A stretch of 35,322 nt of DNA from Ruminococcus callidus ATCC 27760 (lineage in GTDB: Bacteria > Bacillota > Clostridia > Oscillospirales > Ruminococcaceae). A model generated the notes under the pieces. The model was not told the origin of the DNA. It made no database searches and saw only the letters and a list, made by a program, of their open reading frames with translations. The stretch covers positions 1-35,322 of the forward strand of contig NZ_KI260295.1 of assembly GCF_000468015.1 (NCBI RefSeq). The letters are read 5' to 3'. Made by a program: the position numbers and the translations under genes. The first letter of the stretch is position 1. Each line of letters begins with the position of its first letter. Shown in pieces: positions 32,901-35,230 of this stretch.

Positions 32901-33461
32901 ATGAAAGTTTATACCATTATCGGTGGTGTCAACGGCGTAGGAAAAAGCAGTTTTTCCGGTGTCCTGCGGCAGCAGCGACTGGACTTGGGAAAAATCATTG
33001 ATCCAGATCATATCGCGGCAAAAGAGCACTGCAACAAACTGGAAGCCGGCAGGATCGCCATTCAGGAAATGGAAACCGCAATTCAAAACGGCTGGAACTT
33101 CACGCAGGAAACCACGCTTTCCGGCAGACGCACACTACAGACCATTCTTGCAGCTCGACAAAAGGACTATCAGATTCGGCTGTATTATATTGGCATCAGT
33201 TCCGCCGAAGAAAGCCTATACCGCATTGCCAACCGTGTCCGCAAAGGAGGACACAACATTGCCGAAGCAGATGTACGCCGCCGATACGAGAAGCGATTCG
33301 CAGACCTCTCCAAAATTCTGCCCTATTGTGACGAAGCCCATTTTTTCGACAACGAAAACGGGTTCACAGAAGCGGCAATTTATCAGAACGGCTCCCTGAT
33401 TCCCGTCTGCGAAGTACTGCCCCAATGGCTGCAAACCTTTCGCAGCCTGTTTCTGAAATAG
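32901..33461 (+). CDS. Orphan zeta-toxin-like P-loop kinase (COG4185 type)
   Basis: A 186-residue protein, the only confident plus-strand gene. The Walker A motif is GVNGVGKSS (9-17), followed by ETTLSGRRT and the arginine-rich RVRKGGHNIAEADVRRRYEKR, features of the predicted kinase/ATPase family COG4185 related to zeta toxin. The start at 32901 follows GGAGG. No epsilon-like antitoxin gene is seen on either side, so it may not act as a classic toxin; the substrate is unknown. It is flanked by two structured repeat elements and lies against the surrounding gene direction, which suggests an acquired gene. It is convergent with hemW. Confidence 0.8.
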   Translation: MKVYTIIGGVNGVGKSSFSGVLRQQRLDLGKIIDPDHIAAKEHCNKLEAGRIAIQEMETAIQNGWNFTQETTLSGRRTLQTILAARQKDYQIRLYYIGISSAEESLYRIANRVRKGGHNIAEADVRRRYEKRFADLSKILPYCDEAHFFDNENGFTEAAIYQNGSLIPVCEVLPQWLQTFRSLFLK

Positions 33462-33491
33462 CCGAATCACAACAACCATACATGCAGCCTA

Positions 33492-33652
33492 TTGAGGGGA
33501 ACCCTTTTGAAGAAGGGTTCCCCTCAAACTCCCCTCCGAAAACTTCACTTTATTTTTTCTCATAGGGGCTATAGCCCCTATGAGAAAAAATGGAATAAAA
33601 GTCTTTGAAAAGGGGTCTGGGGAGAAACTTTCCTCAGAAAGTTTCTCCCCAG
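33492..33652. repeat. Nested palindrome element, three hairpins
   Basis: Two 15-bp perfect stems with 6-base loops (33492-33506 with 33513-33527; 33617-33631 with 33638-33652) flank a perfect 38-bp palindrome (33553-33590). The joining arms (about 33528-33552 and 33591-33616) are also partly complementary. The whole 161 bases are therefore nearly self-complementary. It stands between the convergent zeta-like and hemW genes, so it may serve as a two-way terminator, or be a MITE-like element. No coding frame. Confidence 0.9.
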
Positions 33653-33683
33653 TAAGATTGCATCTATGACTGCGGTGATTTGG

Positions 33684-34766
33684 TTATATCAGTTCTGCTA
33701 AAATGGTGTTGGATACGAGGAAGCCCTTGGGCGTGAATGCGATGCGTTCGCCGACTTTTTGCAGAAAGCCCAGCTTGCAATAACGTTCTGCCGCCGCTTG
33801 CTTTTCTGCCAGCCACGAAGCCGGAACACCCTCTGTCAACCGCATGCCCAGCAGCAGCTTTTCCTCTGGTGTGCAGGGCGTTTCGTCTTCGGTTTCGACT
33901 GGCTGCACCGGCTGCTCCAGAAAATCCGACACGGCAGACGGCACAAAAAACCGCTTGCCGTTCCAGCAGGAATGTGCAGACGGTCCGATGCCCAGATAGG
34001 GTTCGCAGTGCCAGTACTTGCAGTTGTGCCGGCTCTCGAAACCGGCTTTGGCAAAGTTGGAGATCTCGTATTGCAAAAAGCCAGCTGCCCCCAGCTGCTC
34101 CACCGCCTGCAAGTAGAGGTCTGCCGCGGTGTCATCGTCGGGACAGCATTCCGCCACGTGCTGCACGGCAAAAGGCGTTCCCTGCTCTACCTTTAATAAG
34201 TAGGCAGACACGTGTGTAATGGGCAGCTGCACCAGCCGGGAAATGGTCTGCTCCAGTTCGTCCGCCGTCTGCTCCGGCAGTGCCAGCATCAGGTCACAGG
34301 ACAGGTTCCGGAAGCCCGCTTCTGCGGCAGCGTATACCGTTTCCACAGCCTCCTGTGCCGTGTGCAACCGTCCCAGCCGTTTCAGCTGGGCATCGGACAG
34401 GGACTGCACCCCCAGAGAAAGCCGGTTGATGCCTGCGTGGCGAAGTTCCCGCAGCTGCTCCGGTGTCACAGTGGCAGGATTTGCCTCCAGTGTGATCTCC
34501 GCATCTGCGGACAGGGCAAACTGTTCCGCCGCCGTTTCCAGAATTTGTGTGATCTGTGCAGGCAGCAACAGCGAGGGCGTTCCGCCGCCGAAATAGACCG
34601 TGTCCACGCGTTCCGGCTGGGCAGCGTTTCCGTAATGCCGCAAGTTCCGGCAGACTGCCGCAGTGTAGGCGGTCAGCAGTTCCGGCTGTGCCGGCACGGA
34701 ATAAAAGTTGCAGTAGGGACACTTCCGGCGGCAGAACGGCACGTGCAGATAAAGTCCGGCACCCAT
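33684..34766 (-). CDS. hemW: Radical SAM heme chaperone HemW
   Basis: A 360-residue protein of the oxygen-independent coproporphyrinogen oxidase-like family now known as HemW, which transfers heme. It has CRRKCPYC (CX3CX2C cluster motif), GGGTPSLL, ITLEANPATVTPEQL, LSLGVQSLSDAQLKRLGR and the C-terminal HemN-like part. HemW proteins lack the extra residues of true HemN, which fits the short length. The ATG overlaps the stop of the upstream gene by one base, so they are translated together. Confidence 0.95.
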   Translation of the reverse strand: MGAGLYLHVPFCRRKCPYCNFYSVPAQPELLTAYTAAVCRNLRHYGNAAQPERVDTVYFGGGTPSLLLPAQITQILETAAEQFALSADAEITLEANPATVTPEQLRELRHAGINRLSLGVQSLSDAQLKRLGRLHTAQEAVETVYAAAEAGFRNLSCDLMLALPEQTADELEQTISRLVQLPITHVSAYLLKVEQGTPFAVQHVAECCPDDDTAADLYLQAVEQLGAAGFLQYEISNFAKAGFESRHNCKYWHCEPYLGIGPSAHSCWNGKRFFVPSAVSDFLEQPVQPVETEDETPCTPEEKLLLGMRLTEGVPASWLAEKQAAAERYCKLGFLQKVGERIAFTPKGFLVSNTILAELI

Positions 34767-35195: not shown

Positions 35196-35230
35196 AAAAA
35201 ACCGACTTTCACAAAGAAAGTCGGTTTTTC
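35196..35230. terminator. Bidirectional intrinsic terminator
   Basis: A 10-bp perfect stem (35201-35210 with 35216-35225) with a 5-base loop and U-runs on both sides. On the minus strand it ends the gene that enters from the right edge. Confidence 0.9.

Follow-up and report, generated by a model that had tools for sequence, protein, structure and literature searches.

A dispersed, bipartite palindromic DNA repeat, probably of REPIN-like design, between two convergent genes of Ruminococcus callidus

The window, that is, the whole 35,322-nt stretch of Ruminococcus callidus DNA that was analysed, contains a Zeta_toxin-like gene and a HemW-like gene that converge on a palindromic gap (Table 1). 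The stop codon of the Zeta_toxin-like open reading frame (ORF) lies at 33459-33461 on the plus strand, and that of the HemW-like ORF at 33684-33686 on the minus strand; among 15 further genomes of the genus, 12 have a match to the HemW-like protein. The initial annotation had described a 161-bp element in which two 15-bp stems with 6-base loops surround a perfect 38-bp palindrome and are joined to it by complementary linkers. All three palindromes are real and were placed correctly, but the central one comprises 40 bp, and only the left stem has the 15-bp, 6-base-loop form, the right stem having 16 bp and a 4-nt loop. The linkers are complementary in the predicted fold, with mismatches. The 161 bp constitute the inner part of the element and miss an imperfect outer inverted repeat, 33462-33491 / 33653-33683, which adds 30 nt and 31 nt outside the hairpins. 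Because this outer repeat reaches both stop codons, the whole 222-bp stop-to-stop gap (33462-33683) is one nested palindrome.

Table 1. Features of the palindromic element and its neighbours in the window
Feature	Position	Strand	Remarks
Left neighbour, Zeta_toxin-like protein, 186 aa	32901..33461	+	PF06414, E 8.7e-6, over its cut-off
Left outer arm	33462..33491	.	imperfect pairing with 33653-33683; starts right after the stop of the plus-strand gene
Left half-site hairpin, TTGAGGGG...CCCCTCAA	33492..33527	+	15-bp stem, 6-nt loop; retained in relatives
Left half-site tail	33528..33551	+	from fold and half-site searches; complementary with mismatches to the right tail
Central palindrome, perfect, 40 bp	33552..33591	.	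sequence varies among copies, palindromy retained
Right half-site tail	33592..33616	+	conserved half-site, served as search query
Right half-site hairpin, CTGGGGAGAAACTTTC...CCCCAG	33617..33652	+	16-bp stem, 4-nt loop
Right outer arm	33653..33683	.	imperfect pairing with 33462-33491; stops at the hemW stop codon
Right neighbour, HemW-like radical SAM protein	33684..34766	-	PF04055, E 6e-30; HemN_C under its cut-off

Folding of 33462-33683 predicts a four-way junction on either strand, and formation of a cruciform or of a long folded RNA is possible. The 161 bases have folding-energy z-scores (100 shuffles each) of -12.7 (plus strand) and -13.3 (minus strand); for 33462-33683, the values are -13.8 and -15.9, respectively. 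In 20 dinucleotide shuffles of the window, the longest arms are 7-10 nt with loops of 0-6 nt. Arms and folding energies are thus far beyond those of shuffled sequence, which refutes chance palindromes, an explanation of negligible probability. Elsewhere in the window, a single perfect inverted repeat has arms of at least 11 nt and a loop of at most 12 nt; this repeat, at 35197-35229, has 14-bp arms, a 5-nt loop, and A and T runs, and resembles a bidirectional terminator.

A single-copy sequence would speak against a mobile repeat, as the initial annotation pointed out. The element is not single-copy: genome-wide and cross-genome searches reveal recurrence within and among genomes. The R. callidus genome (G000; 226 contigs, 3.1 Mb) contains three copies, namely that of the window, C185:24736-24901, and C185:23694-23898, the middle of which reads N. 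On C185, the order is TPK gene, copy, Fic gene, copy, ordinary terminator (identified by eye), spoIIIAA. The 15 further genomes of the genus gave no match at E 0.001, and no copy is present in the 260 nt past hemW in its 12 orthologs. Matches at E ≤0.001 occur in 6 of 60 genomes, R. callidus included. The exact right half-site pattern is present in 7 of 297 sampled genomes of the family, representing 7 of 126 genera, with a reversed-pattern control giving 0 in all; this pattern undercounts, because the copies in G000 and G030 escape it.

A scan of named genomes returned at least 112 matching stretches. Among the 80 matches listed, 74 are from Ruminococcus and other Clostridia, 4 from a Deltaproteobacteria groundwater metagenome-assembled genome (MAG), and 2 from a Planctomycetota MAG, so that occurrence outside Clostridia depends on two MAGs. 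Both half-sites are present at the Deltaproteobacteria loci; in the Planctomycetota MAG, L056 has the right half only, and L126 starts too near an edge to judge. With one G458 core as query, 0 of 50,697 phage records and 0 of 72,556 plasmid records match, and carriage by phages or plasmids was set aside; the exact pattern matches 2 stretches in IMG/VR. Only about three to twenty copies were seen per genome. Contigs end within or beside copies (G436, ends of C5 and C13; G458, end of C2 and start of C20; L265, L267, L268, L275-L279), and draft assemblies therefore probably undercount them. We found no description of the element in the open-licence literature, where six half-site strings gave one unrelated 14-mer match, and Rfam gave 0 matches at gathering score in the window.

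Comparison of the copies reveals a core composed of two conserved, non-identical half-sites, each a hairpin with an 18-20 nt tail, inverted around a palindromic spacer. In particular, the consensus of the right half-site among relatives is AAAGTCTTTGGAAAGGGGTCTGGGG, followed by the remainder of its hairpin, while the left half-site is related to the right one without being its copy and reads AAAGTTTTAGGAAAGGAGTTTGAGG in G034, read outward. The difference between left and right half-sites is retained from Ruminococcaceae to the Deltaproteobacteria MAG. Half-site spacings form clusters at 46-52, at 80, and at 89-103; the others range between 17 and 382, and some copies are long nested forms. The spacer varies freely in sequence yet remains palindromic: 1360 of 1401 centre pairs are Watson-Crick, a share that errs high because only locally aligned stretches were counted. 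Some copies carry a short tandem repeat of variable number in the right hairpin (L100, from Ruminococcus sp. YE71, and L150), and extra palindromes are present at loops or junctions in L020, L024, L028, L049, L063, and L095, L028 having them at both mirror positions.

The outer arms are locus-specific in most copies. Specifically, 97 elements were found and 81 with 80-nt flanks free of N were retained; these 81 include the L081 element twice as well as orthologs of sister species, and number 73 at one per locus. Scored against the reverse complement of right flanks, the left flank of a copy reaches a median of 34 with its own partner, versus 14 with other copies of the same genome (258 pairs) and 13 with other genomes (6222 pairs). 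A copy's own partner flank is the unique best match in 41 of 81 copies (43 of 73 at one per locus). At one per locus, 50 of the 73 own pairs reach an arm score of at least 24, as do 11 of the 230 pairings across copies within a genome; the remaining 23 of 73 sites fall below this score, and about a third are therefore without a clear outer arm. The outer arms of L049, L108, L128 (Deltaproteobacteria MAG), and L145 are alike and close to TAAGGAAnCTCTGA, as terminal repeats would be.

The arms, where clear (57 of 81 copies with an arm score of at least 24, the set used for arm statistics), measure 35-60 nt in many copies and tend to reach the stop codon of the adjacent gene. The median difference between arm end and gene 3′ end is -1 nt (78 gene 3′ ends, window left out), and 41 of 78 arm ends lie within 10 nt of the gene 3′ end versus 26.7 by shuffling of arm lengths (37 of 69 versus 23.8 at one per locus). 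Gene 5′ ends follow no such rule, with 3 of 33 arm ends within 10 nt versus 4.6 shuffled. In the window, CTGAAATAG and CTGATATAA suggested that arms are copied from the coding end of the neighbour. Among 21 centred pairs, the coding ends show no excess identity (2.52 of 9 versus a shuffled value of 2.75), the next 12 nt give 3.48 versus 3.12 (P 0.16), and this origin was rejected.

The copies are also biased in gene context. Neighbouring genes are convergent at 35, codirectional at 40, and divergent at 5 of 80 copies (33, 34, and 5, respectively, of 72 at one per locus), versus 13, 96, and 29 among 138 other gaps of at least 60 nt in the same loci. These orientation counts carry some error, since our home-made gene caller miscalls the left gene of the window (L001, counted as codirectional). 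Between convergent stops, the core is centred to within 10 nt in 18 of 36 cases versus 7.6 by shuffling (18 of 34 versus 7.3 at one per locus); the window, entered by hand in this count, has 30 nt versus 31 nt. The distances to the two stops correlate by rank, with a coefficient of 0.33 (p 0.047) for all 36 cases and of 0.40 (p 0.02) without L229 and L269.

Three sister species, G458, G436, and G342, mostly 92-96% identical over aligned stretches, allow orthologous copies to be compared. Loci A to F are common to the trio, apart from C, where G342 lacks a copy, and five loci are comparable whole in at least two species. At two of these five, one species has the core in the opposite orientation relative to the aligned flanks: G436 at locus A, and G342 at locus B. 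The G436_A core is 99.4% identical to G458_B, versus 96.9 and 96.2% to its orthologs, and the G436_C core is 98.1% identical to G342_E, versus 93.1% to its ortholog, these differences amounting to a few bases in some 160 columns. Because G436_A and G436_C are nearer to cores of other loci than to their orthologs, cores have been exchanged between loci, by transposition or gene conversion. The opposite orientation may accordingly reflect replacement by another copy and not inversion in situ, the core of G436_A being B-like.

Base pairs compared between orthologs include 4 compensatory double changes in the centre versus 0.17 expected, which may have been imported with exchanged whole cores. The arms show 4 compensatory doubles versus 1.0 expected, with one event counted in two comparisons, alongside 6 other, non-compensatory doubles; single arm changes break a pair in 28 cases and mend one in 17. 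On these counts, arm conversion is only suggested, and template switching as the origin of the arms is weakly supported.

Neither a target-site duplication nor a clean empty site was seen, as the element-free orthologs that we found are unalignable at the junction. At locus C, the sister without the element has an ordinary terminator (by eye), and the junction is unreadable because the preceding gene is only 72% identical. At locus F, G462 lacks the element and has a terminator and then a TATAAT-type promoter between the two genes; G432 is similar, but has a different small palindrome in the gap. When L232 and L237 are compared with L240 at this locus, the TATAAT-type promoter precedes the next gene in the element-free relative, and the element takes the place of that stretch where it is present. 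At locus A, the next ORF starts directly after the stop in 8 of 12 relatives (by eye).

A Y1 transposase was considered as mobiliser. At E 0.001, 7 of the 16 genome records that bear the element (G000, G030, G034, G342, G436, G316, and G070) have no PF01797 match. The other nine have matches, of which eight exceed the cut-off; an internal stop is present in one match. G060 and G296 have theirs at one and the same position and appear to be a single genome. Within roughly 1-1.5 kb around the nine Y1 matches, half-sites match only at the limit of 7 mismatches, and the Y1 transposase was rejected on both counts. The intact Y1 proteins we take, by their look, to be ordinary IS200-type or distant Y1 proteins. 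A hidden autonomous version of the element was likewise rejected: among half-site pairs up to 3 kb apart, two are wide (1.1 and 1.8 kb), and these enclose the Fic gene (C185) and ordinary ORFs (L117), with no recognised transposase. The mobile-element view of the initial annotation therefore receives partial support: the element recurs within and between genomes, is patchily distributed, exchanges its core among loci, and has this core in either orientation, but neither a clean insertion nor a mobiliser was found.

Among known systems, the closest in design is the REPIN. REP sequences and REPINs carry a conserved tetranucleotide tag at the foot of the hairpin. A REPIN is an inverted doublet of REP sequences, extragenic and dispersed, with two conserved inverted regions and a less conserved spacer, in which length and hairpin capacity matter and compensatory changes are common (excerpted text of PMC3116915). 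The element shares inverted, conserved palindromic units around a hairpin-folding spacer; it is built like a REPIN, and probably also behaves like one. It differs in that its half-sites are hairpins with 18-20 nt tails that are unlike each other, in its strong bias to gene 3′ ends, in its locus-specific outer arms extending toward the stop codon, and in its few copies per genome. It is not filed as a REPIN because the Y1 (RAYT) transposase is missing from seven of the 16 records and does not lie beside a half-site in the other nine. The BoxC/intrastrand triplex motif, considered on account of the element's G-rich hairpins, is also a conserved, dispersed palindromic motif of many genomes, sometimes in tandem inverted pairs, and has been linked to rearrangement, but the consensus and layout given in the excerpted text of PMC4666352 differ from those of the element, and this identity was rejected.

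Selection on an RNA fold, with the element acting as a bidirectional terminator or a 3′-end mRNA stabiliser, would fit the very stable folds and the marked preference for convergent gaps and gene 3′ ends. Inverted repeats in general are enriched 50-80 bp past bacterial stop codons, which is usually attributed to termination (PMC13155455, in excerpt). Like a rho-independent terminator, the element places GC-rich hairpins at gene 3′ ends; it differs by a nested four-way fold and the lack of a T-run excess, and the claim of the initial annotation that its symmetry exceeds what a terminator needs is supported, there being no T run. No GC hairpin followed by a T run was found inside 33462-33683, and no terminator-like site, two matches falling inside the hemW ORF; the lack of another terminator in this gap also favours a role of the element in RNA. 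So does the count of terminator-like hairpins between stop and core, 13 of 110 3′ ends versus 36 of 122 other gapped 3′ ends, although the latter stretch is longer and the comparison unequal; counted from the stop through the element plus 120 nt, the sites number 26 of 110 versus the same 36 of 122, and within the core 6 of 110. In 8 of 57 arm pairs, an A run outside the left arm is combined with a T run outside the right one. However, such runs are not above control (left A 16 versus 15, right T 9 versus 14, n=57), and ordinary terminators, identified by eye, adjoin some copies (C185 copy 3; L055; loci A and F). Wobble pairs in the arms have no strand bias (119 versus 130), and the codirectional copies, with 48 sense and 61 antisense G-U pairs, therefore show no RNA-level wobble preference; RNA-level selection acting through G-U bias was rejected. 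The missing runs and the missing wobble bias speak against selection on the RNA fold, an explanation that we regard as unlikely.

Were the element a classical MITE belonging to a DDE insertion sequence, it would have terminal inverted repeats and a target duplication; MITEs are likewise short, non-coding, palindromic, and patchy, and the alike arms of L049, L108, L128, and L145 point the same way. This reading is nonetheless improbable, since the outer arms of Clostridia copies are locus-specific and not shared termini, no target duplication was seen, and no partner transposase was found, even in the two wide half-site pairs. The live accounts of the arms are template switching and insertion into older hairpins. 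Under the latter account, the core would have landed in the loop of an older hairpin, for example a terminator, whose two halves now form the arms; this has a real if minor chance of being correct: the arms at locus A resemble a terminator stem with a T run, as do those of L168 and L235, other palindromes have inserted at junctions and loops of the element, and the core is centred between stops. Many arms, however, at 35-60 nt, exceed the usual terminator stem and reach the stop codon, and by eye no hairpin with the same stem is present in 12 relatives of locus A or in 15 element-free relatives of the flotillin locus, none of them decisively close. As a general rule, arms as split terminators were rejected, because there is no T-run excess. 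Template switching is known from quasi-palindromes, whose arms are made more alike in concerted change (excerpts of PMC7202029 and, for Nematomorpha coding palindromes, PMC6649704); those palindromes are not dispersed conserved elements, and here arm conversion is weakly supported. That the element is a self-enlarging palindrome, turning flanking DNA into its own arms by template switching up to the stops, with a core that turns and moves without a dedicated transposase, is a speculative account that we hold to be rather doubtful.

On balance, we favour, with moderate confidence, the reading that the element is one copy of a dispersed, recombining, non-coding, bipartite palindromic DNA repeat of REPIN-like design, for which no mobiliser was found. 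For such a repeat, we envisage that the half-sites would be recognised, as folded single strands or cruciforms, by some recombinase, or would simply be exchanged through general recombination, and that recognition or exchange would spread and turn the core. Insertions would persist where they are least harmful, just past stop codons. The outer arms would then arise and be mended as replication switches to its own nascent strand, as in quasi-palindrome template switching, until coding sequence blocks further arm change. Should the element affect transcripts, through a stable four-way fold of the RNA at the 3′ ends of both genes, that effect would be incidental.

If so, the element would represent a population of REPIN-like repeats that does without the Y1 transposase, the hallmark of REPINs, in several genomes, and would offer a natural system for following palindrome growth, orientation change, and exchange between sister species. 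The stop-reaching arms would provide a direct test of RNA selection versus DNA copying as the source of long bacterial inverted repeats. As a further observation, the Fic-family gene lies between two oppositely oriented copies (G000 C185:23694-24901; L009 3695-4902), with its start signal directly at the outer arm.
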